Below, piece after piece: positions 27,011 through 61,189 of a DNA stretch of 64,000 bases; the first letter of the stretch is position 1, and each line of letters opens with the position of its first letter. Source of the stretch: Undaria pinnatifida (lineage: Eukaryota; Sar; Phaeophyceae; Laminariales; Alariaceae); contig JABAKD010000011.1 in the NCBI GenBank assembly GCA_012845835.1, positions 12,904,324-12,968,323 of the forward strand, read 5' to 3'. The notes below the pieces were generated by a model. It worked only from the letters and a program-made list of their open reading frames with translations, was not told the origin of the DNA and did not search any database. A program made the translations under genes and the position numbers.

Positions 27011-27113
27011 CTACTTCCACATGAAATCGTGGCCAAGGAGTTCATAGAGTCGTTCGTTGTGTGGTCGATACCACTCACGCAGTAGCCCCTCTTCTTCGAA
27101 CATCTTCTCGTAG
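27011..27113 (-). CDS. Sulfotransferase exon 9 (C-terminus)
   Basis: Encodes YEKMFEEEGLLREWY and then RPHNERLYELLG, ending HDFMWK and TAG. The pattern of a helix, then Y-x-PHN-x-x-LY-x-LLG-x-D-F-x-W, is the standard C-terminus of the fold, so the gene is complete at this end. The acceptor is CTTCATATCGCAG. No clear poly(A) signal was found in the bases below 27,011. Confidence 0.9.
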
Positions 27114-30100
27114 CTGCGATATGAAGCAAAAGCGTGGGTTGAGAAGAATCACGCGTGCAGAGGGAAGCGTGTCGCCATGGGAAATCATTATGTGGCTTCA
27201 CGTTGCACAGTATTGGATTTTCAATAAACGCGATAAGACCCAGTCTACGGTGGACGAGGTTCCCTTGTTCCACGCGGAAACCCATCGCAAACAATATAGT
27301 TTATGGTCTTCTCGGTCAATGCGCGTATTCGCCAAGAGTCTGGCATCAGACGTGTGCTGCTGGCGCACCCAACAAAACTGGCTCACCTGTCACAAACAAG
27401 AATGTTGCAAATCAGCAGCGGCTAGACGGAACACCGATGCTCGTGTTCAAACGTAAAGAACAGGCGTAAAGCGTTGTTGTCTACAACCTTGTCTCACGTG
27501 TATAGCTCAAGATTCAACGAGGAGGTTCTGCTTGTTCTTGATATGTTTAGAGGGGGCTAAAATAACTCGTTTCGGGGCCGCCAAGGTAGTTCAAAAGTTC
27601 GTACATCATATATATCCCCCGAGGGCCCAGATTGCTTTGACAAAATAATAATATCGCATAAAACGTATTTTATCATGAGTATTATATCATGAATATTATA
27701 TGATGAATTTTGACAAACCTTCCTCCAGGAACAAAGTTGTTCCCTACGCGGCGGTCTCGACCGTCGCAGCCGGTCTTGTGTTCGCGTGAAGGATCGTATA
27801 TATAGCTGTGTTCCGGGAGACCAGCGAACTCCGTGACTTCATTGATAACAGCGCCAAAGTCTGCCAACATATCATTCGCGTCGACGATCATAATCTGTGG
27901 CGGCAGAACAGTGTGCAACGAAACAGCAAACAACCGGTATCAGTACCATAAAGATAGGGTTTCCCGGATAATGCAGTACCAATATCACAAACGTTCCGCA
28001 GGTGGTTGACTCGTTAAAGCACGCGTGTTGTATTCCGTCATTAGAAACAACATTTATTTGGCCGGGCCGAAGGAATACCCCAAATCACATGTCAATTGTA
28101 AAGAAACTCGTCACTCAAACTGGTCAACCCGCAGTAGTTTTGAACCTGGTGAAATGCAATTCAAGCCATCCCAGATAACCCTTGACCCTGCACTGAACCC
28201 AGTTCCGCCTTTCCGTGCCATTGCCGATGGATTGCCTGCGATTGACGCTCCAATAGGCGCAGATCGGCGATGTCGGGAGACTGGCGGAGGGTTCGCTTGA
28301 TGTGGACAGATAGCTTGTTGTGTGACGCATTTACTTCATCGCGTGGTCTGCTCCACTTTACGACGTAGTCAACGGGCTTCCATACCTGAGAACGGTCGAA
28401 CACCCTGTACCACCTCTCCAGTTGGTCGGCGTACAGTCCTCTGTAGAGCGGGATGCTAACCTTCAGTGTCTTGTAGCACTTCCACAAGTCCGCCTCGGAC
28501 GCGTTTTCCCCTCGGCAGAGCGCCGTGTATGGCTCGTAGCCTGCCTCGGCCTGGTTGGATAGATGCAACACAAAATTTCAGCTTGTGAGCAGACGTACCA
28601 TTTGATCGAACTCCATCGCCACCGTAGCGGTAATCGGCGTGGGATTGTTGACATTCCGACGACGTAAGGGTCGGTCCGACGCACGTGCATCACGCCAAGC
28701 GTGCAAACCATGTTCTCGTATGCCCCCCCAACCACACAGACGTGTATTGTTACCCACCAATCAGTTGAGTTTGACAACTAGAGCGGTACGCTGGACCCAC
28801 TGGCGTAGTCGATGGCCGGCACAAAATATTTAGGAGAAATTGTCTAAAGCACAGACGGAAACGCAATGAAATTGAGATATCTCTACGGTGAGGAGCCCCT
28901 TCATCCGGAACCGGAATGGTCATAACGGCCCTCGTCCTAATGCAGCACTCGTCAGTCAGCCTTTGGACATGTAGATACCGTCGAAAGTCGGCGTGTCAAC
29001 TGCGGCTGTCCTGGCACGACAGACACATGCCGGGGTAGAGGTTCACCGTTATATATTTAGGCTCCCTACGCGAGGAGCTCTATACATCACTCATCAACAA
29101 ATTTGGAGCAAACTTCAAGTTCAACTCGATGAGCAGAGAAATGGCCTGGATATCCAACCAAGAAACGTAAAGCAGAACAAAAGCGGAATTTTCGACGATG
29201 TTTCAGTTGAGGGTCCATGTCGTTCACGACACATGTTGCTGAACGGTGATATAACGCTTTCGGAGCACGACTGTCATAATATGTTTTTGGCTCGAAAAAC
29301 ACATCATTGCACGCTTGGTTTGGCGAAGAGCGTTGGGCTGGAGAGGCCGTGTCAACGAGCTGCCCGCGACGCTATCTGGCGGTTCTACAACAATCTGGGA
29401 ATCTCGTCGGCGGTTAAAAATAAATACACGACGGACAAAGGTGCATGTGATATATCGGTATCGTGGGTCCGCGGCAGTCGCACACGATTCAAGGAAGAAC
29501 GGGGCACGCCGTAGAGTCAAACGTATCCAGATCTGTAGCCAGATTGCCGTGGAACCCCCTCTGCTGACCTTGGCGAGGTACTCCTTTGCTTCCCCGGGGT
29601 GGTGGAACAGCCTTCTCAACTTGTCCGGCATGTCCAGGAATGTAGGGTCGTGATTGTCTCTGCACATATCCATCCGCAGCTGAGAGAAATATCTGCGACA
29701 AAACCCACGTAGCAGGTGTAGTCTATGTCAAAGGTTGCAGTATGGCGTGTACCAACCGGTGCTGCCCCGGGTAACACTATCTGGCCAAATATTTCCCAAC
29801 GATGACGAGGTTCCTCGCCCGAGGAGGTAACCAATTTCCTTGGAACAACCGTAAATATGTTAGACCGTAGGTTTTGATGAGATTTATTGGCGTGCCGTGT
29901 TCATCCGTAGCAATGTACGTAGTTTACGCAAAATTCAGCATTTCGACGAAGTGTGGCAGAGCCTTCCAGCGAGGAGCACCAGACAACATGCGCGCGTCCC
30001 TGCCGTCGCCGGCGTCTATACTATTTCAGTGAATCTTCACACGCTGTCGCTCCGTCACCCTCGGTAAGTGTGCCATATCTCGTACTTGTTTAATCGACGG

Positions 30101-33100
30101 GTCGTAAATGCTACCTTGTGTTCTGCGAGTTGCTCCTTGTGAGCCGTCAGTGCTTTCTTGGTTCGGCTCAAATATCTCGCGCCTCCCGTGTTGCCAATGG
30201 CTTCCCCGTGTCTTCTTGCACCCGATGCGCTATTCACAGAAAAAAAACAACCGTGTACGCCGGGGATACGCAATCTCCTCCTCGCACAAGACAAAGTCTG
30301 GTGTGGCGAGAACTACCTCTACATGAAAAAACGTGTGTTATCGGGACCAGATGCCGGAATGCTCTCTAGACGATATATATATATGTCACATTTATCCCCT
30401 CGAAATAATGTATAGTTTCCAGGCACATATCGAGCTGCCCCCCCCCCCCCCCCCCCCCCCCCCTCCCCCGGCCTCAATAATATACTGGTGCCAAAACCGT
30501 CAGATTTATCCCCTCGAAAGAATTTATAGCTTACATGCACAAATTGCCCCTTTCCCCCCCCCCCCCCCCCCCGCCCCCCTCCAAACCCGCTCGCTTTTGA
30601 TCTAAACCAGGCCCCCCCTTTCCCTTCACAGCTGTCAGATTTTGTCCCCCTCAGAAACGGGTTTTATAGTTTCCGCGCACAGACTGACTAAAATCATCCT
30701 GTTGACCCTGATAGCTACACTGTAGCTGTAAGGGGAGTCGCCGACCTATATCCTTAATGAGGACACACAACTCGTAATGCGCGCGATCGGAGTATCACAC
30801 ACAGCTTGCAAAGATGAGTTTCGACGAAATCTTCGATCTCACAGCTGGAGTGTATTTTAATTTTTATAATATATATATATATTATAAAAATCAAAATACA
30901 CTCCGGCTGTGAGATCAAATGTTTTGTCGAAACTCATCTTTGCAATCTGTCTGTGATACTCCGATTGCGCGTATTACGGGTTGTATGTCCTCATTAAGGA
31001 TATAGGTCGGCGAGTCCCCTTGCAACTACAGTGTAGCTATCAGGGTCAACAGAGTGATGTTAAGCAGTCTGTGCGCGGAAACTACAAAACCCGTTTCTGA
31101 GGGGGACAAAATCTGACAGCTGCGGAAGGAAATGCATCAGTTTATCAAGTGAATCCTGTAAGTCGAATAACCGGTGAGGGGAGGGCGGAGGTTTGATGGG
31201 CGTGGGGCCTTGATTTTGATCGAAAGGGGAGAGGGGGGGCAGGGGACGGGTGGGGTAGCTCAATTTGTGCGTGGAAACTATAAATCCTTCTCGTAGAGGA
31301 GATGGGGGGGGGGGGGGGGGGGGCGGGGGGCGGGGGGGGGCGGGGGGCGAGGGTTTTAGGTTGCATAGACATTGGGGTTTGCTATACACGTGGTGCTAGG
31401 TCTAGGCGATGGTGCGGGTGGTGGGGAAGGAGGGGGGTTGGGGGCGGGGGTGGGTGGAATTGCAGCAGCGGCATAGACGCCTCTAAAAAGAAAACGAGGC
31501 GACATCCAGGGAGTGGAAGTGTTTATTACTCTAGCGGATTTTGATATTTGGTGGGGCGTTTGAGAAAAGAAAGCAAAAAAAAAAAGGGGGGGGGGGGGGG
31601 TAAGGGTTTTCAAGAGGTTTACGTCACATATAATATGAAAATACACTCCAGCTATGAGATAAAGGATTTGGTCGACATTGAGAGTCGCACCATAGTGTGT
31701 GATCCACCGATCGCGCGAAATAATCATATATGAAGGGGCTTGCATTACGCGCGGTGCACGGTCTAGGCGATCGTGCGGGGTGTGGGGAAGAAGGGGGCGT
31801 TGGATGGGGGGAGGGGGGATGAATGAAAGCTACGTCATGGATGGCTAGAAAGATAATGACGTGATATCAATTGCTTAAGAGTGTTTATTACTCTGGCCGA
31901 TTTCGATTGTAGGTGCGGCGTTTGAACAAGTGAGGGATGGGGTGGGGGGAGGGGGGAACATTTCAGTATGTGCGCGGAAACTATAAACCTTTTGAGGGGA
32001 CGAATCTGACGTTTGCAACAAGAAGACACCCCTTTCTATCACCCTCCTGGTAACGTTTATTATTCTAGAAGGTTTGACGTTACATGTAGTATGCAACCCT
32101 GTATAAAACATACCTGTCAGTGGGATCCCGAATAACGAGGACGAACTTGGCGCTAGGACGGACCATTTTTATTCTGTAAGGTGCGATAGGGGAAACGATG
32201 TACTCCGGGCTAGAGTCCACTATGACCTTATCGACCCCAGGCGTCACCGAAGCTTGGTATTCTCTCCCCTTAAGGTTCACATTTAAGCACGCGCAACGGC
32301 AAGCGGGCAGGGGTGGTGTTGTGGTTTTCCGTTAGCCGTGACTCCATTACTCGCTCGACGGCATTATAGAAGCGCAAAATACACCCGTCAGCCTGCAACA
32401 TTTCTACGGAATATAGACTCAATCCTCGATGATGCCGCCATGATATCACGGCCTTCAACATCAAAACGACACTAAATGCTCGTACGGCTATGGGAATGAG
32501 TAGAGTGTGAAGAACGTCGTGGAAGATGTATACGCCCTGGCGACATCTTGATGCTCACCTTTCCACCACCTCCAAGTATAACGTATACCTCGAAGTATAT
32601 AGGGGTGTATGCGAGTGGAAGAGAACGGTAAAAATGCCTGGCCTTGTTGATCAACCCACATCGACTACCGGATGTCTACGCAGGATGTAAGCATTGGCTG
32701 GTGCCAAGTGCCAATTCGGCGGGGAATTACATACATATGCGCGCCGTCTTCTACGAGACTGGCTGCTTTCGTCTAAATCCTCACACTCTGACCGAGATCC
32801 TCGAAACAGACATGCCTCATTCTCGTGGTCACCAATAAACGCGGTTTTGTACGGTATGGCACGCCTCATAGGCTTCACTGATACCCCGTGTTTGTCCGAT
32901 ACTACCCTTGCCGCGTTACCGCACGTGCGCCCCAATCAATAAATTTTCACTCCGATAGACATACCGTGGGCGCGCATATTTTGGCGTACTCGTATAGGAT
33001 TTTGCCAGCCTCCTCCGCACCGATGTCTTTATCTAGACCTTCCCCCTCCCACTCTGATATCGGCGGAAAGCTGTGGAAAAAAAAACGATCATCAAAGAGC

Positions 33101-36100: not shown

Positions 36101-39100
36101 CGCTTGAGTTTTCGTGTTCCCTAGTAGTGTGTGAGATGGGCGTTCGAAGAGCTTTAGGGTCAAGCCTGCACCGCCCGACGCTTGATGCAGAACGCCGGAT
36201 CTCACTCGAGTCGGTGATCATTCCATCAATACAGGTGTGTGCGTGTGCCTTTGCATTACATCAGGAGCATAAAAGAGATCACTTCGGAGCAGTAGCGATC
36301 GACGTCCACCGCATGTTCCATCATGACTCGACAGCACAAAAACCCGAGCAGCAGGCCTGGACTGGACCTCCGCTGGCCTGTCACATAATCAGGGAGTACA
36401 CAGACACTTGCGTACAAACCCGGTAGACCCAAGTAGAACACTCCAGAAGCTGACTCGAACACTATAACACTTACTGTTTCGTGCATACTGATTCTACAGA
36501 TGTCTGGCTTTGGCCCCTTCAATGCGGATTATACAGTTTCTGTGCGCACAAAAAGCCGAAAGTCTCAGTCCTATCGACCCTGGCATTAGCAAGAGAATCA
36601 CCGGACGTGTATCCTTCACGAGGGCACACACCCCGTAACACGCACGCGCGATTGAAGTATCACACGCAACTTGCAAAGCAGAATTTGGATTAAAAATATA
36701 TTTTCGGTCGATCTCACAGCAAAAGTGTATTTTTCATATTTAAAATATAGGATATTTTTTAAACATGTAAGCGTGGAAGACAGGGTCGTAGATACCTATC
36801 GTAAATCTCGTACACGCATGCGCCAGACGACACGTCACTGGTCAAGCAATATACGATCCCGGGTCGCGAGCGGTGTCACCTGTCATAGAGGGCGTTAATC
36901 CGTCCCCGGAAGGTCAGCAACCAAAAGATAATCCCGCCGCATGACGAGAGGGCAGAAGCCCACCGTCACTCTAGCTTTAGCATCTCATTGCTACACAAAA
37001 AAGAAGGGTTTCACCGTGCACCCGCTGTGAGGGCGATCGTCAATGGACCTCAGCACCACGACGCCCTCTCGGCTTCGACGTCAGGTTCGCGAGGCCCTCT
37101 CCGCTCCGATGCCAGCTACGAGAGAGGAGTACAAGGCCAACGGGACCGCCCTCTCTACTTCGACACCAGGATCCGTGAGAGACCAGGCTCCATAGTGATG
37201 ATCACCGTCGGATCAACAGAATATAAACCGCCGTCGGAGAAGAGAAGAAAATGCCACGCTCAGGAGCTCGCTCCAAGATGAGGCGTGGCAAGGCCTGCAA
37301 GGCAGCGACAACGCCCGAGGAGCCGACTCCTGCATCGCTGGGGGACTCCTTTGCGTCCGTCGCACCCACCGACCAGGGCGGACCAGCCGAGGCTGACGAG
37401 AAGGAGCCCAACCCTGCAGATGATTCTGAAGGGCTTGGTACAGCACCGGACATCGCCGGCACCACGACACTTGCACCATCTGCGGGAGACATTAAGGAGG
37501 GCTCGATCCTGGAGGAGGACATCCTCGCCGCGCCTAGCACCCTCCCCGCCAACGACCCGGTCCGCGTCGAGACGGCGGCCTATCTGGGGAGGTGCATGCT
37601 CGACGGCACCACGCCGCCAGCGTCGGTCTTGGAGCTGGTGCTGCCTGGCAGCAGGAACACGTGGGTGGGCCTTCCATCAATCAGATCGCCGAGGTGAGAG
37701 GTGTACCGCCGCCGCAGCAGAATCTCGATGTTGTTTTTGAACGCGTGCAGAATCCTCAAACACGCGCCACGCCCATACAACAACAGTCGAGTAGCTCTGA
37801 CACAGACGTACCTGTCCGCCTGACCAACTCACCCAGCCCCTCTTACAGCACGTACCATCTCTGCCGTATAAGCACCCCCCACAGCACGTACAACTTCTGC
37901 TGTAGCACCCCCGTGCTCACACTACCACCACAGCGAACACGGACAGTTTTATATGAAAAAATCGGATCTGTCTCCTTCGCTCAGGTTGCACGGTTAACCA
38001 ACTGAAGAAGATTTGCCCGAAATCATTTCGCTCTTCCACTCTCGCATCGGCTTGCACGCCCCTGACGGCACCCCTGACTCGGTTATCGACCACCACGCCG
38101 TGAGATACCTTGCACACTTAGTGACCGGCGGAGCAGCTAGCACCATGCACCAAGTGCAGTGCGAGACGTTAGAGTGGCGCACAGACAAATAGCTAGCACA
38201 ATCGAACACGGAGGATGTAGAAGTCAGAGCGCCACGCAACTGGAGCGAGTGGTTGGATGCTTTCGCAAACTTGTTTAACCCAGTGAACTGCATCGTCCTT
38301 CTCGCTCGCACCGTCTCTACCGTGCAGCAAGGCAGTAGTGAATCCATCGACTCCTACGGACTGCGTAAAACTTAAGCAGACGCGCGCCTCCTCGCCGAAG
38401 CCAAGCAAACAGCCCCCGCCAACGTCTCGCCATACAAACAAGCATGACAAACATCGCCCACGGCGACTTTCGAAGCCGGTCTAATTGCACGCGTACGTCT
38501 GGGACTTATTCGTAAAGAACCCTTCCTCACGTACCAAGCCTCACGAACCCGCGCCGGCAAATACGAGACCGACGCCTTACGCGCGGCCCCCACTCCCTCC
38601 CCGACCACGAATGTATCGGCCGTCACTGGCACATCCCCTGGGCCCGACTGACAGTTAATCACAACGATGGCCGACGTCGAAAAGGTGATCGTTCCAAACC
38701 GACGGCGGTGCGAGGGCGGGGCAAAAGCGTGACGTTCGAGTCAGCAGCATATGGCCCGTCCAACAAACGAGGCAGGTCGCTGAGTGGCGACGCGGGGAAA
38801 AGTCGAAAAGCATAGCATCGGGCAAAGAATGTGACTATCTTATGTGCCGCCACCGCAATTCGCGGCCAAAGCGCACGAGCTCGACGGGATAGGGTCAAAC
38901 AAAAACCGTGATGGGGCCCGCGCCGGTTGCCTCAAACCGGTTCGGGGAGTAGGCATACTAGGATCACCTAACCCGCGGTAGAAATGATAGCGCGATCAGC
39001 TAGCGTAGCCGTGGCAAGTGCCGATAGACCTAATAGTAAGAGTAGGGATAAGTGTGGCCGAACAAAGAGCACCACCCCTCTGGCAAGTACCCATGCGAAA

Positions 39101-42100
39101 CAACTACATGCAGACAACCAGTCGAATACTGTAACACTTGAAAAATATGCACAGCAGGTTCCGAGTGTTCTAGCAGTACCGCGTGGAGTTGGACCAGCCG
39201 TAGAAGCAGCAAGCAGAGTCGAGGAGAGTAGTCAGCGTCAGAATTATACGTTTTCACCTTCCGTGGTACCACAAGCGTAGTATGTTTCTGCTGCGTCCCT
39301 CAAACTAAAGGAGAAAAGTCAAACATCAAGTGTGATTATCATGCAACGCTAACCGGGAAACGCACGTGGATGCTTTCCACGCGTCTGCCATGAGTTGGTA
39401 TCCCTGATATTCCACAGCTCCCAACTCTACGTCAAACCGCGTACGAGTAAATGCCAGAATCAGTGATTATCCGGCGCACAATGTCACGATTGACACCGCG
39501 ACCGATGTACCATGCATATTTGTTCACTTTGTACAGACACATCCCACAATGAAAGACACTCAAATTTAAATCGTAGTACCGGAGGCCCTTGGTGGATTAA
39601 TTCTGCCCGCCTACCACGATCACGTTGTATCCGGAAAGCACCTGGCATCTCGCCCGACTTATAAAAAAACACGCCTGAAATGTTGGTGGTCCACCATCAG
39701 CCGCGACGTACGACAGTGGTGCGAAAAATGCCAAGCTTGTCAACGACGAAAAACAGCACACAACAGACCCAAAGTTCCGACAGGCCATTTACCTGTCGAG
39801 CGCCCATTTCCACGAATATCGGTTGACTTAGTAGAGTACAAATCGCTATCAAGGTCAGCCGCAAGGATCGAACGTAAGTACGTTCTCTCGGTGATGGGCC
39901 ACCTGGCGAGGTTTGCGGTGCTGTTGCCGGTACGTAATAAAACGGCCGAAACAATAGCCATTACCATTATCGAGAGAATAACAATTTTTGTGGCCCACCA
40001 GAAACCTTGCGTGGCGACCAAGGCCCCAAAATCGAGAAAAAGGTGACATACCAGCTGCAACAAACACTCGGATACAAAAAGACCCGCACAACGCCGTACT
40101 GGCCTCAGGGTAATTCAGTGTCCGAACCGGTGCGCTCAACGATGTGCAGCATGCTAGCAATGGACAGTGCAGTCGATCAAAGCAACTTGGCCACTCTCTT
40201 ACCGTTTGTGCAGCTAGCGCAGAGCACACTAGTTTTAGTGCAACGATGCATGAGACACCATTATTCTTAGTGTTCGGACGACAACCCCGACTTCCAGTCG
40301 ATATAACCCTCGGTATTCATCATGTAGGAAGAACAGCAGACACTGAGGAATTCGCACAAAACAGACGGAACAATTTGCAAATCGCTGTTGAGCTCGCACG
40401 CCGAAACCTTACCGAGGGTGCAGACAAACAGGCAGAAAAGAAAAGCAAACATAAACCGTACCCGGTGTTCAAACCTGGACAGGAAGTACTCGTGCACAGA
40501 CCTTATCAGGATTCGAATCGGCCCAACCCGAAACTGTTATTATCATGGGGAGAACCGTATGTCGTCTGCTCACAATTATCACCAGTGGTACATACAGTAC
40601 GACTTACGAACGACACCCGACAGGTGCCAGCCCACCTCGCCCACACAAAGCCCTACCATTAACGGGAGACACCACCCGCACCTCAATTTGAGAAGCTGGC
40701 GAAATTGTTTTTAGGGGAGCCTATTCCCCTACCGGAGTTGGACCATCCAGACGCAGCTCAACCCAAAATCGAGTCCTACTTCGTAGACAGGGTAGTAGAT
40801 CATAAACGGGGACCTGGCAGACCAAGCCCGCACAACTACAAGTATCACTCAAGACTCCGAGGACACGGCCCTGAATCCGACCTCGAGTATCGAGCGGACG
40901 AAATACCCAAATGCCCCAAAATTATCGCCGCATCTCGAGCCGAAAAGGGTTTGCAACTCGCGATAACCCCACCTCCTTCCCCCCCCCCCCCTCCCTTTTC
41001 TCGGAAAACGATAGCGTACAGCAGGCGGGGACGAGCACGAAATGAGACAGCGCTCAAATATATACTCAGATGCTCCGCGGCGTATCCGAACAACGAACAG
41101 GTTGGCAAACAGAGTTGACTCAGCTGTAAGCACAAGAGTTAGCAAAAGTGATGACAGTAGCACCAGCAGACATGGCAGTACATAATCATGTCTACCGTGA
41201 TCTGACGGGCACTCTGCCCTGGGAATATCCGGGGCAAGGATACGCGAAGAAAATGATTGTAATTAATGAGGAGAGGGTGTATGAAGCGTGACACTCCATG
41301 CCTGTGCCTGACACTCCGTTCGAAACGGGACCAAACAGCAACACCACCATCAAGCCACAACATTGTTCGAACACTAAACACACGCGTGGAATGAGACCCA
41401 CGCGACTCCGCCCCACCTAAAACGACAGTCGCACGTTGATGCACGTAGATCAACAACCGAGCCGACTCCGAGTGAAAATATTTAGACGGACCCGCCCGCA
41501 AAAGAGAAATCATGAAACACTTTCGGTGCCCGTGGTTCTCAAAACAGCAACCACGAGAGGCGCACCAGGACGTGTGGCCACACGGAATACGTGCGTTGAG
41601 ATAATATTTGATAACCCCATGCAACTCCAGTATACCCTGTTAGCATGCAAGCTCGACAGTGTAAGCATCTTCGCTGGACCGGTGTTTCATATCCGTGTTT
41701 ACTAAACACGTCCGTAATACGGAGTGGATACACGCATATATATAACAGCTGTGTGTCTCGATCCGATAAGCCGATAGACACCCCGTTTCCAAAATTTGTC
41801 ATCCTCCCGATGACCGCTACAACACCATCCCCAGCTAAGATGGGCTTGCAGCGAATACAGAGGGGAGTGATGTGGAAAGCAGGGTTGTAGATACCTATCG
41901 TAGATCTCGCACACGCATGCGCGAGAGGACACGTGACTGGTCAGGCCATTCACGATCCCGGGTCGAGAGCGGTGTCACCCGTCGTAGACGGCGTTGAACC
42001 GTCCCCGGAAGGTCAGCCACTGAAAGATAATCCCGCCGCATGACGATGTGGCTTAAGCCCACCGTCACTCGAGCTTTAGCATTTCCTTGTCTAATCTAAG

Positions 42101-45100
42101 AAAGAAAGGTTTCAGCGTGCGCCCGCTGTGGAGGCGATCGTCAAGGTACCTCAGCACCGCGACGCCCTCCCGGCTTCGACTTCATCTCCGCGACGCCCTC
42201 TCCGCTCCAACGCCAGCTACGAGACGAGCAAAAGACCGCCGGGACCGCCCTTTTCATTTTGACTCCAAGATCCGTGAGAGGCCAGGCTCCATATAAGGAA
42301 TATAAGTAAAACTGATAGGTGCTACGTGTAGACAAATGCCAGCTACGAGACGAGCAAAAGACCGCCGGGACCGCTCTCTTCATTTTGACTCCAGGATCCG
42401 TGAGAGGCCAGACTCCATATAAGGAATATAAATAAAACTGATAGGTGCTACGTGTAGGCTAATACAAAGAACAAAAAAACAATATGAATGCTTTTTTATT
42501 ACCTGGACTATTGCGATTATATGTGTAATAGTCTATAATGACCACAATCGAACTGGGGTGTTGCCTATTGATTGGAATTGTCTGGATAATCGATTTACAA
42601 CGTTGTCTATAAATGGTATTTGTTGGATAATTGATTTATTTACAAAGTTGTCTATTAAATCAAGTTGCCTGGACAAGTGTCATCGCCAATATGCTGCATC
42701 AATAAATAGACCGTTGCATGTACAAAATAATGAGGTAGAAAGTGACAAAAGACTACGGGTTCAGCAATCGCCATTATAGTTCAGTGGGTAACTATTAATG
42801 GCGATTGCTTCAATTGCTTCAACCATTAATATAGATTGGGGTGTACTAATTGAAATAGTCTCAACAACAGGGCCTGGTGGGCGTCTATAAATAAATAGAG
42901 ATTGTCGGTTCAATAGAGCTCGGCGAGTTCAATGTATTAGAATTAGGGACCACAGTAGACAGTCAATTGCAAGAGGAAACTATTGATAGACTATTATTGG
43001 ACCATTGTCTATTGTCCAGGGTGTGGAATCTATCCGATTACAAAAGCTGAGCAGCGTGAATACGACTCGCGGTCGACAAGGAGATTACGGGGCTGTGCGT
43101 CTGTATTCTAGGATGGCAGGATCGTCCTGCACACTACTTTTTCCTACAACCGCAGCAGCCACAAACAATAAACAATCGATCCGAAAAACCTAACGCCTTC
43201 GTACACCCATGCATGGGTAAATGCGCCCTGCCATACATGAGAGGTTCAAAGCAATCGTTTGCGCGGTGCTGGATATCGCCCCAATTATCCTCGACGACAC
43301 CTGCGGTGGAAAGTCCTTTGACTTATTCTCAATTGCCACAAACAACCAAGACGACGCGATTCCACTCACTGGTCGGGAGCCTGGTCGAAGTAGTGCACTT
43401 CGTGAAACTTCCCTGCTACCATCGGGTGTGTCAGCAAGTTCTCGCGCAAGTTGGTGGTGCCTCCTTTCTGTGATCGATCGCGATTACGAGGAACAGGTGG
43501 TCGTGCTGATGCATCAATTTAGAATCGTTAAAGAGCAACCATCCGCGTTCCTCGCTTGGGGTGAACAAGAGAAGGATAGCACTCGTATCGCATGGGTTGG
43601 GCACTCGCAGAGCAACTTGTATTTGTACGCTGTGACCACCCGACACAAGAAACGAAAATGGTGTAAAAGACGCTGTCTTAAGGCGTAGAACGGGAAGGAA
43701 CGCGTAACCCGAGTGCACAAAAATAGCTTGGATATATTGCTTTATGAATAAATGAATAGTTGCATGTATGTGTCGACTCGATTTCCACGGTGAACCCGTG
43801 CAAATAGGGCATGCTGGTGCTACCCAAATGGCGCATAACACATGCTACAGATGTAAGAGTATGCCGCCGGTTTTCCAAGTACTCTTTTGTTCCGGTATAA
43901 AATGTAAAGCATCATATCACACAGACTACAATAGGAGAGTGGTGTCTGTGTACCTTGAAACGTATGTGTTTCGAATACAACCATCGGACAGGCGTCGGAG
44001 CGAGTGAAGTGGTACCTGTCTATTTTGTAACACTGCCGATATAAGGCGAGATTTCAACAGTTCAGGTTCAACGAAATTTTCGATGCGTGGTTCGTAACAG
44101 TAGCCCAACCCCCCAAAAAAGTACTTTCGAATCCGCTGCCCTCTCTCTTCGCCCCCCCCCCACATCCCATCCCCCCCACAAGATGCTCCGTGGTTGTTTT
44201 CACGGCGGCGGCGCTTCTCATCCTGCCCTTTGGATACTACGAATAAACATCACATTCAAACTAGCATCGCCCTGCAAATAGAGCTGCGATGCGTTTTGAA
44301 TTGTTGGGGAATCCTCTTATAGGTGATACATGTCAACTGTACCATCCTTGGTATATATATGCCTACCAGGTACTGAGCACTCGACCCATTACTCCGTACA
44401 GGGAAAGCCTAACGTCGGGCACCTGGGCTCCTATGATGGTGATGATCGGGATGGACAAGTCGTGCGTTCTCCCGAGGCCCTTTACAACGGGTACAGGAAG
44501 CGACACCGTGCTTTTGGAGACCTCGACCGCGTAATCGACAAAGGTGGTGTAGTGCTTAACCAGGCCTTCTCCCTGCTGAAGGCGGCGCTGAGAGAGTACG
44601 AGAAGAGGGGTTTCAAGCGACGGAAACACACCGAAAACGAGACATGACGTCAAAAATGAGACGACGAGTTGCTTATTTCTTAGTTTTCACGCGATCGTGT
44701 TTGGGTCGAACGGCGACAATGAGTCACCACGTGTCCTTGAACACATACAACACAGCACAAGTGAAACACTGTATTCAGAGTGTAACCACAAGTGCGCGTA
44801 TTCGTGTGTTCGTCACAAGAACATTTTCGTTCCACCCATCTATACCCAGCACAACCAGTGTCCGAGTGGATGCCCCCTCTTGGGGAGGAATCTCCGAGGT
44901 CACTATTTACAAGGGGTAGAGAAACAAACTGAGACCCACATTGCAAATGCAGTGTGTGTTCTTCACGTACAAGGGTATTTCCATCTACTTATCCACATCC
45001 AGCACAACCAGGGTCCGTTCCGATGCCTACCCCTCGAGAGACGAACTCTGTGGTCACAAACTACAAGATAGAGATGCACATTGCAGAGCAGACAGCAGTG

Positions 45101-47701: not shown

Positions 47702-47745
<44 letters not shown>

Positions 47746-50700: not shown

Positions 50701-53700
50701 TTGCTGTACAACCGTGAAGTTGTCTGCTCCCAGAAAAGGTGCGCGACTCTAAATAAAGCATGAAACCTTTAACCTACTGATGATGTGTAGTACAACAGTA
50801 TTATAGTGATCGAACTCACTGCTGCCGTGAGTTGAACTCATTAGGTGAAATGTACAATTTTTAACGGGAACTTTGCATCTTTTGCACAAGATTAGTTCAA
50901 GGCTACATAATAACATACACATGGCCCGAATTGACTTCGTGACAAGAGTAGTGTTCAACTTTCGAGGACTCGACTTCAGAAGTGGCAACCACAACGTTAA
51001 AAAAAGAAGCAAAAAATAAAGACGCAGAAAAAAATGGAGAAAAGCGACAAAAAAAAAATGTACAGTGAAAAAAAGCTAACCGAAAAAACGTTGAACGAAG
51101 AAGACGGTGAAGGAAAAAACGTTGGACCAATACCCCTTGCTTCGTGTCCTTTCTCCGCCGCGAGTTCTCTCGCAGAAGTTGATCGAGTGGAGGCCCTTAG
51201 GGTGTAAGCGAACTTTTGGTAATCCGGTACGCGATCTTTGGTGGAGGAGATGACGAATCTCGATAATTGGAACATGCATCTATTGTATAACATGCATCTA
51301 TTGTATACCACCAGCTACTTATTGTACTGTATTCCAACCTGGATCCTCTATGTACCATGTGGTCTATTTTTGTATTTTTTAGATGCTCCTGGAGATCCGG
51401 GTAAAAAACGCTTGAGCTCCATACACTTTGTTTAGTTTGCCTACCAGGATTTGTCCATCTGCAAAACGCAGACTTCATGGTGACCTCGCGCCTTCGGTTT
51501 TGTCGACACCGTGGACGTGCCGGGCTTCTTCGGCCGAAACTTCGACTAAGGTTCGGCCCAGACGGTGAGATGGCAACCCACGACTCGACAGCTCTTCTCT
51601 ACTCTGATACCATCGAAAGGTAGGACCAAAATTGGGTCAGCCGTAATTCAAATCGGAACATGTGTGTTGTGGATTGGCAACATGCGCATACCAGATGCCA
51701 GTCAGTCAACTGCAATTATTGTTTTTCTTGAAAATATTTCAAGGACTTCAGCCAGCCGTGGGTTCGACGAATTTCAGGTCAATATTCATCTTTGCAAGCT
51801 GCGTTGCTGGTACTTGTAATATACTATGATATATGGGTGAGGTTTTATTGGGAGGGGCCTGGGAGGGGTCTTTTTTTTTGTCCACGATAATGGTAAGTGT
51901 TGGTATTTTTACTTTAGGTGGGGAATTTTGATCTACCATCGCATCTACTCCGGAGTATTTTATAAAAGTATAACTGTAGTTTCCACTATAATACTGCTCT
52001 ATCATATGTATGGTGGGCGGTTTATTTGTTTGTTCTCCCCACTTAATATCGGGAGGAGTACGAATACAGAATATTATTTGGTATCTCATATAATACTCAA
52101 AATACAGCATTCATTCGAGGATGAAAGTCGGCTACTCCCCCACCACGAAAATATGTAGACCATATTTTAGTACAAAGATCATAGACACAAATCCCGTCTT
52201 CAGCAAAGAAAAAACCTTGCCCATTATCGCCACAGCGTCAGGCCAGAGGGCGCAGACCACTTGGTGCTTGATATTTTCGCTGCCTGCTTGCCCCTCTTGG
52301 TTTGTCTCCCTGGACATCGATCGGCCCACGACGAGTTCTGTCTCGCTACGAACATAATCATCCGACGACGGCTCTTCTCCCACCCGCCAAATATGTAACC
52401 CGTTGGGGGTGTATATTGCCAAGCTCTTTGGCCCCTGCTGCCGCCTGTTGTCGTGATTGCTGCTGTTCACGAGCAATGGTCAGGTCCTTTAGGCTAGGGG
52501 TTGAAGGTATTCTTCTCTGCCGAGGAGGTGGGATAACTGTTAGGTGGGCAGGGCAGCTCCTAGGCTTGAGTCACCACGACCCCTTTCTGGTCAACTCTGC
52601 CTACTACTTGTAAGAGGTGCCTGAAACGCAAAGAAAACAGCTGCTTGTGAACATTTATTTTCAGAATCTGCACGTCTTCCCGACGCAGAAATTACAACAC
52701 GACTGCTGTGGGAACCCGTCCACGGAACAGAAGATTACTGCAAATTTTGAGTCGAAAAGCCTCTTCTAGGACTATTCACAATATAAATATTATATAAAAA
52801 AAAAATACACTCCAGCTGTGAGATCAAAGATTTCGTCGAAACTCATCTGTGCAAGCTGTGTGGGATACTCCGATCGCGCGCATTACGGGTTGTGTGTCCT
52901 CATTAAGGATATAGGTCGGCGACTCCCCTTACAACTACAGTGTAGCTATCAGGGTCAACAGGGTGGTTTTAGTCAGTCTGTGCGCGGAAAATATAAAACC
53001 CGTTTCTGAGGGGGACAAAATCTGACAGCTGAGGAGGGAAATGTATCCTTTTATGAAGTGAATCCTGTAGGTCGAATAACCGGTGAAGGGGGGGGCGGAG
53101 TTTTGAAGGACGTCTGGGGGGGTTGTTTTGATCAAAAGCGAGCGGGGTTGGAGGGGGGGGGGGGGGGGGGGGGGGGGGCGGACGGGCGGGAAATTTGTGC
53201 ATGTAAAAGCTATAAATCCTTCCAAGGGATTAAATCTGACGGTTTAAAAAAAAATTGAAAAAATGCACCAGTTTATCATGGAGAGGGGGGGGGGGGGTTG
53301 GGGCGGGGGGGGGGGCGTGTGGGGCAGCTCAATCTGTGCGTGGAAACTATACATTATTTTGAGGGGATAAATGTGACGGTTTTGGAAATAATGCATCAGT
53401 TTATCATGTATATTCCGGGGTAAGTCGTACAATCAGTCAGTAGAGAGAGGGCGGAGTATTCGAGGAGGTGGGGTTGGGATGGGTTGGGGGGGGGGGGGGG
53501 GGGGGGGGGGAGGGGGCGGGGGAAAAGGAAGGGTTTTAGGTGAGGGGTTTGTTGTACGTGTGGTGCTAGGTCTAGGCGATGGTGCGGGTGATGGGGAAGA
53601 AGGGGGCGTTCGGGGCGGGGCGGGGGGGAAAGCAGCGGCATGGATGGCTCTCGAAAGATAATGAGGTGATATCCTGTGCGTGAAGTGTTTAATAATGTGG

Positions 53701-55088
53701 CGGATTTCGATATTAGGTGGGGCGTTTGAGCGAGGGAGAGCGAGAGGGGGGGGGGGGGGAAGATTTATTAGGAGGTTTAGGTCACAATATACGATCGCAT
53801 ATATATATTTTTTCTGCGTGTGTGTACGAAACTAGTACTATTTGCAGCAGCTGTGTACCATTTTTTCTTGCTTCTCGTTTTTTGTGTGGTCTGTCTTATC
53901 TTGTTGTGTTCTCGTACCCGGTACGTTAGCATTTAACATGTTTTATTTTCCCTTGTTGAGATGAATGGGGACTTTCCGGTTTATTTAGTCTGGTTTACAT
54001 TATAATTTAGTGTGTGGACACCTCATAATTTTCTATCTCTCTAGGCTGAACAATCAGCACAGACTCTGTCTGGGCGTACTGAATCATGATGCCGTTGGTC
54101 AGAAAGAACGATGTAATGTGAAGACAACACACACGATACTAGCCGGCCGCCCGGTGCAAGAGTCTACTGGTTACCCGCGACTCTAATTAATGATAATAGC
54201 GTTGGTCCTTGAGTTCAATTCCTACCGCTCGCTGTGCGATTTTGAATTAATCTGAAAAAAAAAGAGAAAAAAAAAAAAAAAAATGCTGAGGGAGCCTAGA
54301 ACGCATTACGAGTACTACGCGAGTCGACAAGCGAAAAAAGTGTCGCGATAAAAATCAAGTAACGTACCGCAGTGGGGAGGGGGGAGAATGGCCCGCTACG
54401 TATGTGACCCCTGATGTGAGATACTACCGGAGGAGGGAGAACGAGAGTAGTGCGAGGATGAAAAGTGGAATGAAGAAAAAGAAAAAAATGAAGCATAAAG
54501 CTCTCGTATTCGCGTGCTGGCAGTACTGGCGATACATGAATTTACTATACTAGACTACATATATTAAAATCTACTTCGAAGTATAATACAAAAAAGTACC
54601 AGGTATGGCAGTACTGCGGGTACGGACGGCAACTTTTTTTTGTTTTTTGTTTTTTTTCATCCTCCGGCGGATGGGGAAAAATAAAGCTTTGGCTCACCAC
54701 ATTTCCACGTATTTTCATACGCGTCGTGTGTCGATTTCACTCAGTTGCTTTCGCAGCCCAACGCTAGCAATTGTTAACCAAAACTCGTACCTCGCGAGGA
54801 AAAATAAAATCGCAGCACAAGAAAAGAATCCTGCACGTACTCGATGTGCAAACAGTGCCTCACGCTCCCTACTGCTGCAGCAGCAAAAGTGCGTACGTCG
54901 AGGTGGTCGCAGTGCCTTCAGCACTTCCCCCGAAAATGCCATTCGTTCCCTCTCTACAGCGATCAGAAATAATACATAGTCTACACTTCGGACTGTGACC
55001 ACGGACTCAATTATTCGAGTTGATGTAGAAACAACATCGGCAACAACAACAACAACGACAACAACAACAACAACCACAACAACAACCA

Positions 55089-55169
<81 letters not shown>

Positions 55170-55775
55170 CGACACACAACACATACATACCGACAACACA
55201 CAACCGATAGCATATCTAGTGTTTCTTCCCTGGGTATTCCTCGGCTCCAGAGGGACTGGAGCCTGTCCTGTGACGACGGACTTGATTATGCGAGTTAATG
55301 TGAGAACAACAACAACAACAACAACAACAACAATATCTGTGCATTTTTTTGGCCTGCGCTATCCCTAGCATATGACTTACTATTGTTTGAATACAAAGCC
55401 CGGCTACGCCTACTGTACCCACCTGTGGCGTACAAGATGTGCGCAGGCATATTTTGTCGTTAGGCTTACCGGCGTATCGCTCGCCGAGTTCCCCCAGCTT
55501 CTTTTTAAGTCAAGCTCTCGTAATCCACGCATGTTGTCCGGGGCGCTAGTCCTTCCGCTAGCTGTAGTGGAACCGAACACACTTGTCCCCTGACCAGGCA
55601 CGTCATAACCAAGATGATGCTCACGTCCGCGCAGCCTGGAGTCTTCAAACCACTCGGATGACGGCGAAAGAACCAGGCCTACAACGGTGGCGAAAGTTAG
55701 CGCAGTAGCAAATCCATATATCCGCCTCCAGGAGACGGTTGGACTAGCTTCGCACGGGGGGAGTGGGTCACCCAT
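27011..55775 (-). CDS. Nine-exon type II membrane sulfotransferase gene
   Basis: Exons in transcript order: 55775-55470, 44587-44423, 43467-43370, 33070-32965, 32268-32114, 29692-29569, 28550-28386, 27894-27719 and 27113-27011. They sum to 1,398 nt, giving 465 residues plus TAG. All introns are GT-AG and all junction phases agree, which chance would hardly produce. The protein should transfer sulfate from PAPS to a glycan in the Golgi lumen. Residues 1-18 look cytoplasmic and 19-37 form a membrane anchor. The 5'-phosphosulfate loop IIGAQKGGTTNL lies at about 153-164 and HEVHYFD follows at about 179-185. The 3'-phosphate motif RDPTDRYFS runs from R272 to S280. The C-terminal block LREWYRPHNERLYELLG is typical of the fold. 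Luminal NAS is a possible N-glycosylation site. The substrate cannot be told; a sulfated wall polysaccharide is an inference. The link of exon 1 to exon 2 across 10.9 kb is the least certain join. Confidence 0.85.
27719..27894 (-). CDS. Sulfotransferase exon 8
   Basis: Starts IMIVDANDMLADFGAVINEV, the strand and helix that follow DRSQ in the family (compare the usual LVLxxEDL). It continues FAGLPEHSYIYDPS and a Cys- and Arg-containing loop. The donor AAG then GTTTGT leaves AG, completed to Ser by exon 9. The acceptor is CTGCCGCCACAG. Confidence 0.9.
28386..28550 (-). CDS. Sulfotransferase exon 7
   Basis: 55 codons, phase 0 at both ends. It encodes a Cys-flanked loop with the sequon NAS, then SIPLYRGLYADQLERWYRVF and DRSQ. 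The stretch RGLYADQLERW is a hallmark helix of glycan sulfotransferases, found near the acceptor-binding cleft. The acceptor is CCAACCAG and the donor is CTCAG then GTATGG. Confidence 0.9.
29569..29692 (-). CDS. Sulfotransferase exon 6
   Basis: Begins with the single base that completes Arg277, then YFSQLRMDMC. Ser280 lies eight residues after Arg272, the spacing of the family's 3'-phosphate pair. It runs on through a basic helix (DKLRRLFHHPGEAKEYLAK) to the donor AAG then GTCAGC, phase 0. The acceptor is TGTCGCAG. Confidence 0.85.
30374..32058. mobile_element. Compact foldback element in intron 5 (FB-3)
   Basis: Two inverted arms of the G-tract family meet head to head at about 30,861-30,890. 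The left arm (30,374-30,866) runs from a TCCCCTCGAAATAATG module through C-runs to the inner module. The right arm (30,888-32,058) repeats it inverted and extends further, ending with ACTATAAACCTTTTGAGG, TCTGACGTTTGCAAC and GACACCCCTTTCTATCACC. No ORF of its own, so non-autonomous if mobile. It lies wholly inside a gene intron. Confidence 0.8.
30861..30890. repeat. Perfect 30-bp AT palindrome at foldback centre
   Basis: T5ATAAT, then (AT)5, then ATTATA5, self-complementary over all 30 bases, with its axis between 30,875 and 30,876. It is flanked by the inverted inner ends GGAGTGTATTTTAA and TCAAAATACACTCC. Confidence 0.95.
32114..32268 (-). CDS. Sulfotransferase exon 5 (PAPS 3' site)
   Basis: Encodes DSSPEYIVSPIAPYRI and then RPSAKFVLVIRDPTD, the signature strand and turn that hold the 3'-phosphate of PAPS. 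The donor ACAG then GTATGT splits the Arg codon, which exon 6 completes. The acceptor CTTAAG has a poor pyrimidine tract and is the least certain splice site of the gene. It was chosen because it gives phase 0 to match exon 4. Confidence 0.85.
32269..32964. other. Intron 4 of the sulfotransferase gene
   Basis: 696 bp between exons 4 and 5. No repeat or second gene recognised. Open frames on both strands are shadows. Confidence 0.6.
32965..33070 (-). CDS. Sulfotransferase exon 4
   Basis: 35 codons plus the base completing His190. The acceptor is textbook, a T-run ending TTTTTTCCACAG, and the donor is ACG then GTATGT. It encodes the acidic, Tyr-rich stretch between the FFD-like motif and the central helix (for example EEAGKILYEYAKIC). 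The intron before it spans 10.3 kb and holds a whole LTR element. Confidence 0.85.
33071..33841. other. Intron 3, first part, no features
   Basis: Intronic DNA with no recognised repeat or gene. Confidence 0.5.
33842..34760. repeat. CAATTG-rich minisatellite, about 45-bp units
   Basis: Around 14 units near TTAATCGGAATTGCGGCCAC, AATTGATTTTGGG and TGCTGTCTA. The array is split by a SINE at 34,022-34,342. Related but more worn wording recurs on the far side of the LTR element at 42,540-43,020. Confidence 0.8.
34022..34342 (+). repeat. tRNA-derived SINE, full-length copy
   Basis: Box A TGGCGTATCAGG at 34,036-34,047 and box B AGTTCGAGCCC at 34,081-34,091 fit the internal RNA polymerase III promoter. 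A unique body follows and an A-tail of about 17 ends it near 34,340. The same sequence is at 46,785 (+, 5' part only) and 47,929-48,256 (-). A true tRNA is ruled out by the lack of a closed cloverleaf and by the body and tail. Confidence 0.85.
34755..35320. repeat. Degenerate repeat, units of about 176-208 bp
   Basis: GGCAAGACAGAAACAAATT-like wording, then AACAATTTTAATTGGAAG-like wording and CATGAACCTATTG-like wording, recurs near 34,845, 35,053 and 35,229. It borders the 45-bp array and, like it, is rich in CAATTG. Confidence 0.65.
35321..36499. other. Intron 3, no gene recognised
   Basis: Left part (to about 35,640) still shows scattered CAATTG words of worn satellite. The rest is featureless, with a 99-residue open frame at 36127 lacking any domain. 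Confidence 0.45.
36500..36771 (+). repeat. Worn foldback inner module (FB-6)
   Basis: Diverged copy in the same direction as FB-1: TTTCTGTGCGCACAAAAAG, then CGACCCTGGCATTAGC, CGCGCGATTGAAGTATC, CACGCAACTTGCAAAG and TCACAGCAAAAGTGTATTTT. The left LTR of G3 begins right after it. Confidence 0.7.
36772..37192 (+). repeat. G3 left LTR
   Basis: Aligns end to end with 41,871-42,291: start (C/T)GTGGAAG, then GATACCTATCGTA, CGATCCCGGGTCG, GTCCCCGGAAGGTCAG, AAAGATAATCCCGCCGCATG and end AGGCTCCA. Confidence 0.85.
37251..38650 (+). pseudogene. G3 gag region
   Basis: Opens MPRSGARSKMRRGK with an acidic, Pro-rich N-part. Further on, wording such as LDAFANLFNPVNCIVLLART, then DARLLAEAKQ and ARVRLGLIRKEPFLTYQAS, fits the helical gag core of gypsy elements (Retrotrans_gag type). 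Fossil. Confidence 0.6.
39590..40662 (+). pseudogene. G3 integrase region
   Basis: Zinc-binding wording with WCEKCQACQRRKT near 39,720-39,755, then FPRISVDLVEY for the first catalytic Asp. The C-terminal part is a 172-residue open frame (40144-40662) with MHETPLFLVFGRQPRLP and a GQEVLVHRPYQ domain, as in gypsy integrases. It is a different lineage from G2 and G4. Fossil. Confidence 0.75.
40705..41118 (+). pseudogene. G3 chromodomain-like tail
   Basis: ESYFVDRVVDHKRGPGRPS, then NYKYHSRLRGHGPESDLEYR and ADEIPKCPKIIAA match the chromodomain-like end of some gypsy pols, where it targets insertion to chromatin. A Pro-run near 40,975 follows. The stretch from 41,119 to the right LTR shows no recognised gene. 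Confidence 0.65.
41871..42291 (+). repeat. G3 right LTR
   Basis: Partner of the left LTR. Starts TGTGGAAAGCAGG directly after the polypurine tract and ends AGGCTCCA. Confidence 0.85.
42212..42457. repeat. Tandem duplication across the LTR end, about 126 bp
   Basis: GCCAGCTACGAGACGAGCAA, then GATCCGTGAGAGGCCAG and GATAGGTGCTACGTGTAG, occurs twice. Each unit carries the last 80 bp of the LTR plus about 45 bp of flank, so the duplication followed the insertion. Confidence 0.85.
42540..43020. repeat. Worn satellite related to the 45-bp array
   Basis: Spaced words GGGGTGTTGCCTATTGATTG, TTGTCTATAAATGG, TTGTCTATTAAATC and CAATTGCTTCAACC echo the array at 33,842, suggesting one satellite region into which G3 was placed. 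Confidence 0.5.
43370..43467 (-). CDS. Sulfotransferase exon 3 (PAPS 5' loop)
   Basis: Encodes KGGTTNLRENLLTHP and then HEVHYFD. The Lys and Thr residues of the first motif bind the 5'-phosphosulfate of PAPS in this family, and the second matches the usual KExHFFD. The acceptor is CACAG. The donor GTGAGT leaves two bases (CA), which the first base of exon 4 completes to His. The exon is antisense to a 155-residue open frame on the plus strand, which is a shadow. Confidence 0.9.
43468..44422. other. Intron 2 of the sulfotransferase gene
   Basis: 955 bp. A plus-strand frame at 43768 shows CYRCKSMPP and FCSGIKCKASYHTDY, a Cys-pair pattern faintly like the Cys-rich tail of PiggyBac transposases, but too little to call. 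Confidence 0.5.
44423..44587 (-). CDS. Sulfotransferase exon 2
   Basis: 55 codons, phase 0 at both ends. The acceptor CTCTCTCAG has a long pyrimidine tract before it. The exon ends with the beta strand SIPIITIIGAQ, which leads into the PAPS-binding loop completed by exon 3. The donor is CAG then GTGCCC, weaker than the others, but the protein join IIGAQ to KGGTTNL is exactly what the family requires. Confidence 0.85.
44790..45110. repeat. Diverged duplication, about 152 bp
   Basis: CAGCACAACCAGTGTCCG near 44,848 recurs as CAGCACAACCAGGGTCCG near 45,000, with matching flanks upstream (CCATCTATACC and CCATCTACTTATCC) and downstream. Confidence 0.6.
45111..45949. other. Intron 1, no features recognised
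   Basis: Intronic DNA without a recognised repeat or gene. Confidence 0.45.
45950..46350. repeat. Degenerate palindrome-rich minisatellite
   Basis: Two short palindromic words alternate: ATACCCGGGGTACGGGTAT-like and GAACTTCTGGAAGTTC-like. About eight worn units of roughly 45-50 bp. Confidence 0.7.
46785..46905 (+). repeat. tRNA-derived SINE, 5' part
   Basis: GGTGGCGTATCAGGTTATCG, then GAATTCGAGCGCC. It matches the first 120 bp of the SINE at 34,022 and then stops at a G-run, so it is truncated at the 3' side. Confidence 0.75.
47156..47370. repeat. (CCTTT)n pentanucleotide tract, about 42 copies
   Basis: Nearly pure repeat of about 215 bp, with two early CCTTCC interruptions. It is open in all plus-strand frames and in one minus frame, hence the artefactual Phe/Leu/Ser and Lys/Gly/Glu proteins over it. 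Confidence 0.98.
47425..47745 (+). repeat. AAC-tailed repeat, copy 1
   Basis: Full-looking copy: GAGTAGTGAGACGTATG, GGACCTGGCACATCGTAG, TGGTGGAGGCATGAATT, GTGATATATGCGTGTACCAC, the hairpin CTCCAGAGTGACTGGAG, GATTATGCGAGTTAACGTGA, then (AAC) about 14 times. A defined 3' end followed by a simple tail suggests a SINE or a LINE 3' end. Confidence 0.75.
47775..48392 (+). repeat. AAC-tailed repeat, copy 2, split by a SINE
   Basis: The 5' part is at 47,775-47,935 and the 3' part at about 48,250-48,392, continuing exactly where copy 1 continues. The SINE between them is flanked by GTGATAT on both sides, a probable target duplication. Confidence 0.75.
47929..48256 (-). repeat. tRNA-derived SINE, full-length, nested
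   Basis: Minus-strand copy of the 34,022 SINE, complete from GGTCGCCCCGGTGGCGTGTC through box B to an A-tail (the plus-strand T-run at 47,930-47,960). It sits inside AAC-tailed repeat copy 2. Confidence 0.85.
48570..48805 (+). repeat. AAC-tailed repeat, copy 3
   Basis: TTTCTGGCGGAGGCATGAATT, then GACTAGAGCCTGCCCTGTG, GATTATGCGAGTAAATTTGA and a short AAC/AAT tail. More diverged than copies 1 and 2. Confidence 0.65.
48806..50035. other. Intron 1, no features recognised
   Basis: No gene or repeat seen. The open frames at 49308 (-) and 49669 (-) lack domains. Confidence 0.45.
50036..50120 (+). repeat. A-tailed retroposon-like end, copy 2
   Basis: TATGAAAATACGTGGAAGTG, then AGCTTTATTTTTCTCCATCC and an A-run. 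Matches 17,208 and the inverse of 54,640. Confidence 0.65.
50341..50465. repeat. Three worn units of about 40-45 bp
   Basis: Units share TTTTTGTxCGTGxAxCAGCAG, then TCxxCTTCGxG, and make an artefactual Val/Leu/Phe-rich open frame. Confidence 0.5.
50466..52780. other. Intron 1, no gene supported
   Basis: A-rich near 51,000-51,120. A minus-strand frame at 52,476 down to about 52,240 reads like real coding (SLAIYTPNGLHIWRVG and VVCALWPDAVAIMGK, then a possible GTTTTT donor), but has no partner exons and breaks no phase rule of the gene. It may be a gene fossil carried here. Confidence 0.35.
52781..53790 (-). repeat. G-tract foldback family, long arm (FB-4)
   Basis: Same order as FB-2: AT-rich inner end, TACACTCCAGCTGTGAG, inner module, then modules separated by G-runs (the longest at about 53,153-53,178 and 53,488-53,511), ending at GGAGGTTTAGGTCACAATAT. 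The inverted partner arm was not found next to it. Confidence 0.85.
53791..54139. other. Intron 1, no features recognised
   Basis: T-rich DNA without a recognised gene or repeat. Confidence 0.45.
54140..54285 (+). repeat. Possible second tRNA-derived SINE
   Basis: GAGTCTACTGGTTACCC, then the box-B-like GAGTTCAATTCC, and a tail of A-runs broken by one G. It resembles no other sequence here. The box A match is weak. Confidence 0.4.
54640..54735 (-). repeat. A-tailed retroposon-like end, copy 3
   Basis: Inverse of copies 1 and 2: CATCCTCCGGCGGATGGGG, TAAAGCTTTGGCTCACCACA, then CCACGTATTTTCATACGCG. CATCC and GGATG can pair, giving a 3' hairpin just before the A-tail. Confidence 0.65.
54996..55180 (+). 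repeat. AAC-tailed repeat, copy 4, long tail
   Basis: Only the 3' end (GTGACCACGGACTCAATTATTCGAGTT) is present, followed by about 135 bases of AAC with a few ACC, GAC and ATC variants. Confidence 0.75.
55215..55335 (+). repeat. AAC-tailed repeat, copy 5
   Basis: CCTGGGTATTCCTCGGCTC, the hairpin CTCCAGAGGGACTGGAG, GATTATGCGAGTTAATGTGA, then AAC about ten times. All five copies point the same way, opposite to the gene. Confidence 0.75.
55470..55775 (-). CDS. Sulfotransferase exon 1 (signal anchor)
   Basis: 102 codons from ATG at 55775, with a TGA directly before the ATG in the same frame (TGA GCA ATG), so this is the first possible start. It encodes a short N-tail ending in WRR, one hydrophobic span (IYGFATALTFATVVGLVLS), and a Ser/Gly/Arg-rich stem that looks disordered. 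This is the usual start of a type II Golgi enzyme. It ends CCG then GTAAGC, a strong donor, in phase 0, matching exon 2. It could instead be the first exon of an unrelated membrane protein. Confidence 0.7.
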
Positions 55776-56094: not shown

Positions 56095-56225
56095 ACTGGA
56101 AAAGAATATAAATTTACACTTCTCCAGCTGTCAGGTCGAAGATTTTGACGCAACTCACCTTTGCAAGCGGTGTGTGATATTCCCGTACCGGGTTGTGTAT
56201 CGGCGACTCGCCTTGGCACTACAGC
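56095..56225 (-). repeat. Worn foldback inner module (FB-7)
   Basis: CTCCAGCTGTCAGGTCGAAG, then ACTCACCTTTGCAAGC, GTGTGATATTCC and GGCGACTCGCCTTGGCACTA. The direction is that of FB-2, strongly diverged. Confidence 0.65.
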
Positions 56226-61129: not shown

Positions 61130-61189
61130 GCGTAACGTGCGCGTGGTGCCAAGGTGGCAGGAGGCCGTCGAGTGTCAAGCTTGCATGAT

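Follow-up and report, generated by a model that had tools for sequence, protein, structure and literature searches.

The window analysed here, a stretch of 64,000 nucleotides (C13:12904324-12968323 of a genome assembly of 511,146,479 bases in 68 contigs) with a G+C content of 50.8%, carries on its minus strand a sulfotransferase gene of nine exons that runs over about 29 kb, from position 55775 to position 27011, as a single open frame throughout. The frame begins with an ATG at 55775, just downstream of an in-frame stop, and closes with the stop codon at 27013-27011. The exons are listed below in order of transcription, with exon 2 in the form that we prefer.

Exon 1, 55470..55775, minus strand: start codon, predicted hydrophobic N-terminal anchor (residues 19-37) and stem region.
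Exon 2, preferred model, 44423..44572, minus strand: ends in IIGAQ, the first half of the 5'-PAPS motif; acceptor AG|GGA as in 7/7 paralogs.
Exon 3, 43370..43467, minus strand: KGGTT and EVHYFD; acceptor and donor aligned in 9/9 paralogs.
Exon 4, 32965..33070, minus strand: a segment of about 36 residues; both splice sites in 9/9 paralogs.
Exon 5, 32114..32268, minus strand: ends in RDPTDR, the first part of the 3'-phosphate motif; AG in 8/9 and donor in 9/9 paralogs.
Exon 6, 29569..29692, minus strand: YFSQLRM, with the end of the 3'-phosphate motif; both boundaries in 8/9 paralogs.
Exon 7, 28386..28550, minus strand: CRGENAS...YRGLYADQLERW; both boundaries in 9/9 paralogs.
Exon 8, 27719..27894, minus strand: IMIVDANDM; acceptor in 9/9 paralogs, donor exactly aligned in 2/9.
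Exon 9, 27011..27113, minus strand: LREWYRPHNERLYELLGHDFMW and the stop codon; acceptor in 9/9 paralogs.

An initial annotation had described nine exons and 465 residues over about 29 kb, without an exon list; the exons were placed here by six-frame reading, protein motifs, phase and GT-AG sites. Eight pieces joined by GT-AG sites and phase gave a first assembly of 428 residues. An in-phase exon was then sought in the third intron and found at 33070-32965, which, together with an exon-5 start at 32268, yields 1398 bp and 465 residues. As this exon 4 was recognised through the annotated figure of 465, its identification was not blind. The rebuild reproduces the annotated structure, the start of exon 2 being subsequently revised in favour of a 460-residue product. 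It also bears out the statements that each exon is shorter than 310 bp (the largest measures 306 bp), that eight junctions agree (all are GT-AG, with matching phases) and that the exons sum to a multiple of three. No convincing extra ninth exon was seen by eye in introns other than the third, and neither the frame directly preceding exon 1 (55828-56130) nor those at 56711-57274 gave a Pfam match at E 0.1. Judged by its sequence, the gene is real, was correctly and skilfully read by eye, and is ordinary.

The annotated identity agrees with two Pfam profiles whose search had been proposed as a check, and with exon boundaries conserved in paralogs. The 465-residue protein matches Sulfotransfer_1 (PF00685) at 1.1e-15, with 58.2 bits against a cut-off of 22, and Sulfotransfer_3 (PF13469) at 5e-10, with 40.4 bits against a cut-off of 27; both matches also exceed the cut-off for the 460-residue form. 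No NCBIfam family matched the 428-residue form. Both annotated PAPS motifs are present, IIGAQ|KGGTT and RDPTDR|YFS, each interrupted by an intron, and the columns of G, K, G and T in GAQKGGTT and of R, P, R and S in RDPTDRYFS are invariant with four bacterial relatives. We take GAQKGGTT to be the 5'-phosphosulfate loop and RDPTDRYFS to be the 3'-phosphate motif. With both motifs in place, the product is predicted to be a PAPS-dependent sulfotransferase. The annotated membrane anchor corresponds to a hydrophobic stretch at residues 19-37, directly after SWRR (mean Kyte-Doolittle value 1.8), which would serve as a type II N-terminal anchor of the kind found in Golgi carbohydrate sulfotransferases.

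Among proteins of solved structure, the closest relatives are the heparan sulfate 3-O-sulfotransferases, which occupy the top 8 of 15 rows when exon 4 is omitted from the query (best match 8.9e-22) and the top 8 of 14 when it is included (5.7e-18); N-sulfotransferases rank below them. The glutamate of EVHYFD in exon 3 aligns to that of the 3-O-sulfotransferases. Elements shared with these enzymes (PDB 1t8t, 1zrh, 3bd9) are KGGT, E-x-H-F/Y-F-D, RDP and a C-terminal LREWYRPHN...GHDFMW. However, overall similarity is low, and the window protein has the additional exon-4 segment of about 36 residues and a longer stretch before YRGLYADQLERW.

The same domain is found in bacterial proteins from Parasedimentitalea, Palleronia, Planktothrix and Oscillatoria (L001-L004, which head a list of 98 matching plasmid records); they align to 99-100% of a 281-residue query with 25-31% identity. 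In contrast to the window gene, the bacterial genes are uninterrupted, and the exon-4 segment has no counterpart in the alignment. Searches of viral contigs confirmed 0/4 candidates as relatives with a single-protein query and 5/26, at 21-26% identity, with an alignment query (A1); phage records gave one match at 24.5%, and a 112-residue query against genome contigs gave 51 candidates, none of them confirmed as a relative. One contig of the viral collection (L005), considered as an intron-bearing gene, was rejected as such; its positions 703-2195, in a stretch of 24% G+C, instead hold two adjacent, different and uninterrupted sulfotransferase frames, and the next frame resembles a glycosyltransferase by eye.

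The segment encoded by exon 4 lies between the EVHYFD and RDP motifs and has no counterpart in the bacterial and animal relatives that we aligned. Its inclusion raises the Pfam scores slightly (from 56.7 to 58.2 and from 37.3 to 40.4 bits) and lowers the match to the animal enzymes from 80.8 to 68.3 bits, because these lack the segment. Its absence from the relatives would suit a gene of eight exons and 428 residues, in which exon 3 is joined in frame to a cryptic acceptor at 32263. That acceptor, however, has a further AG 5 nt above it and pyrimidines at only 6/18 positions, and if exon 4 is skipped with the acceptor at 32268 kept, the frame breaks within nine residues. When the 812 in-phase open candidates of 31-307 bp in the third intron are ranked by splice signals, exon 4 comes out on top; the ranking was made after the exon had been noticed and is hence not blind. 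As neither the recognition of exon 4 nor its ranking was blind, independent support comes from its conservation in paralogs: it is present with both splice sites in all nine paralogs read, and a tenth, on C22, has a weak exon-4-like match (35%, E 0.003). The eight-exon model was rejected on the grounds that the paralogs carry exon 4, and we consider it very improbable.

The paralogs were identified by searching the genome with the 465-residue protein, which gave 88 places at E up to 1, including the nine exons in the window. The remaining exon-sized matches were assigned, from their order and strand, to ten additional genes or gene parts. Of these, C35 carries four, C52 three, and C13 and C27 one each, and a more distant one lies on C22; an isolated match on C21 (E 0.7) was left out of the grouping. 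Exon boundaries were projected onto all of these except C22, where one match runs continuously through exons 8 and 9. An acceptor AG lies at the projected place in each of the nine paralogs for exons 3, 4, 7, 8 and 9, and at the matching place for the start of exon 5 in eight of them. Likewise, the donor GT is kept in all nine for exons 3, 4, 5 and 7. Both ends of exon 6 are aligned in eight paralogs, the exon not being found in the DNA fetched for the ninth. The exon-2 donor is aligned in 7/7 paralogs in which the exon was found (two had none) and in an eighth read separately. The exon-8 donor is the most variable, with a GT at the projected place in two of nine paralogs and two to three bases further on in four, the matches ending early in the other three. 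First exons were found for five of the ten paralogs, all five with an ATG at the aligned place; the protein search of the genome found none for the other five.

We regard these conserved boundaries as the strongest evidence for the predicted gene model, and as decisive. They also bear on the concern that chance motifs were strung together along 29 kb, which the free search by eye in the first reading might raise. The same pieces and boundaries are kept in paralogs elsewhere in the genome, and two Pfam profiles score over their cut-offs; on this sequence evidence, the reading of the gene as chance motifs is already refuted by the paralogs.

The paralogs further guide the choice of acceptor for exon 2. 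An AG|GGA acceptor, corresponding to GEG in the window protein and lying 15 nt downstream of 44587, occurs in all seven paralogs with a readable second exon, and upstream of it the match runs into a TAG stop in four (C27, C52a, C52b and C35b). In the second exon of C35b (L050), the AG lies three bases off, before GGGAG. The window itself has the AG before GGA, after CAGCAG, so that another AG lies 3 nt above the preferred acceptor. Because 7/7 paralogs place AG directly before GGA, with stops upstream in four, the start of exon 2 is most probably 44572 rather than 44587, giving a predicted coding sequence of 1383 bp and 460 residues. A start at 44587, as sole or alternative acceptor, would retain the 465-residue product. 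Of the eight acceptors, its upstream site CTCTCTCAG has the richest pyrimidine tract (16/18), and the 84 nt above it are free of AG. It is a strong predicted acceptor that may also be used; against the paralog evidence, we consider this start unlikely, if less so than the other departures from the model.

The remaining splice signals agree with the nine-exon model. When the 1908 GT sites in the span are ranked by a simple consensus count, seven of the eight donors fall within the top 2.4% and the eighth within the top 12.8%. The eight acceptors are preceded by AG-free stretches of 30 to 115 nt, compared with a mean of 19 nt over 1521 AG sites (Fisher p 1.4e-5, with exon 2 taken at 44587); since the sites were picked partly by eye, this p value and the donor ranks flatter the model. 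The acceptors at 43467 and 32268 are unremarkable in their pyrimidine content (9/18). Compared directly with the window, the bacterial relative L001 matches exons 5, 3, 9 and 7 with E values between 5e-5 and 0.014, on the minus strand throughout and in exon order, its next match having E 2.3. The other three bacterial relatives match subsets of exons 3, 5, 7 and 9 at E 0.007 to 1.1, and we treat these exon matches as significant for the closest, L001, only. The bacterial relatives were found with the joined exons as query, which renders their support partly non-independent.

In the 465-residue model, introns 1 to 8 measure 10882, 955, 10299, 696, 2421, 1018, 491 and 605 bp, in keeping with the two introns of about 10 kb in the initial annotation. 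Intron 1 contains simple repeats of TTTCC and AAC. Intron 3 holds, on the strand opposite to the gene, an LTR retroelement at 36773..42293 (plus strand), with direct repeats of about 420 nt that are 84% alike and start at 36773 and 41872, and an integrase zinc-binding domain between them. Matches to this element are spread over separate frames, and from its sequence we classify it as an old LTR retroelement. Two interspersed repeat pairs, 89-95% alike, link introns 3 and 1 (34023-34234 and 48040-48251) and introns 5 and 1 (30619-31186 and 52796-53095). The two introns of about 10 kb look like repeat-rich spacers, and no function of their own was seen in them.

Candidate retroelements also lie elsewhere in the window. 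Upstream of the gene, a 536-residue frame at 59564-61174 (minus strand) has an integrase zinc-binding match at 6.4e-9, an integrase core match at 1.8e-7 (31.8 bits against a cut-off of 32.6) and a weak chromodomain match (0.14), and looks like a Ty3-type retroelement. A weak integrase zinc-binding match at 7897-8337 (plus strand; 1.2e-4, below cut-off) is perhaps another retroelement remnant. In Pfam searches of 19 other frames of the window, three gave integrase-type matches and 16 gave none, a survey that genes in short exons would escape. Rfam at the gathering threshold and a tRNA scan found nothing in the window.

The length of the gene is not extreme within its family. By our grouping, the span from exon 2 to exon 9 is 49.8 kb in the second C13 gene and 33.0 kb in C35b, which makes at least two of the ten paralogs longer than the window gene; for the others, the parts found cover between 4.5 and 22.4 kb. 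C52a, C52b and C35b would extend over 41, 43 and 72 kb if they are joined to the first exons that lie apart on C52 and C35, a pairing taken from order alone. The initial annotation had suggested that a gene caller could easily miss such a gene, and this gains some support from a six-frame PF00685 search of the genome: there were at least 24 matches at E up to 0.001, and among the matches listed none lies on C13, C35, C52 or C27, where this subfamily resides. Eight loci from this search (L010-L017), considered as close paralogs, were ruled out by tblastn. One of them, C50:104663-105385 (L010), is an uninterrupted, near-full-length sulfotransferase frame (3.6e-44), and at C50:172582-172875 a PF00685 match lies within an open frame of 3455 residues; these C50 frames are possibly bacterial DNA in the assembly.

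The gene belongs to a kind already described, with about ten relatives in the same genome. In Saccharina japonica, the published gene descriptions comprise 44 sulfotransferase genes (ST1-ST44), with five tandem clusters among them; a gene has 6.95 introns on average, and the longest intron measures about 15 kb (PMC7291590). ST35 is described with 9 exons, 461 residues and a transmembrane helix, and ST2 with 8 exons, 471 residues and a signal anchor; by our own arithmetic on Table 1 of that report, 4/44 genes span at least 25 kb (PMC7291590). The many-intron architecture is thus common to ST1-ST44 and the window gene, as far as these gene descriptions, rather than sequences, allow the two to be likened. 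Since many exons and large introns are usual in the kelp sulfotransferases so described, and some paralogs are longer, the window gene is ordinary. Other reports relate brown-algal carbohydrate sulfotransferases to animal enzymes of glycosaminoglycan synthesis (PMC8307928), and distinguish about ten major sulfotransferase groups in brown algae, with biochemical activity determined for none and with clade 12 adjoining fucokinase-pyrophosphorylase, hydrolase and ankyrin genes (PMC11468063).

Taken together, our data suggest, with a probability of roughly 0.93, that this is a nuclear gene of functional appearance from a brown alga (probably a kelp), and that its product is a PAPS-dependent carbohydrate sulfotransferase of some 460 residues with a type II membrane anchor. 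The large, repeat-rich introns might also be expected of a decaying pseudogene that is intact in appearance only; as the 460 codons contain neither stop nor frameshift and the motifs are intact, we think decay improbable. The functional enzyme would be held in the Golgi by its N-terminal anchor and would bind PAPS by its GAQKGGTT loop and its RDPTDRYFS segment, while the EVHYFD glutamate may act as the base on a sugar hydroxyl. The catalytic roles assigned here are presumed from those of animal 3-O-sulfotransferases. The sulfate would then pass to a polysaccharide of the cell wall, most probably one that contains fucose. More speculatively, the exon-4 segment may mark an algal branch of 3-O-sulfotransferase-like enzymes, present about eleven-fold in the genome, in which this added exon alters the acceptor site to suit a polysaccharide of the cell wall.

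For practical work on this family, our results indicate that this sulfotransferase subfamily can escape a domain search in six frames, and that splice sites can be settled with the help of paralogs where RNA is not at hand. They also provide, for one gene of a family presumed to determine how wall polysaccharides of brown algae are sulfated, a model that has been checked.
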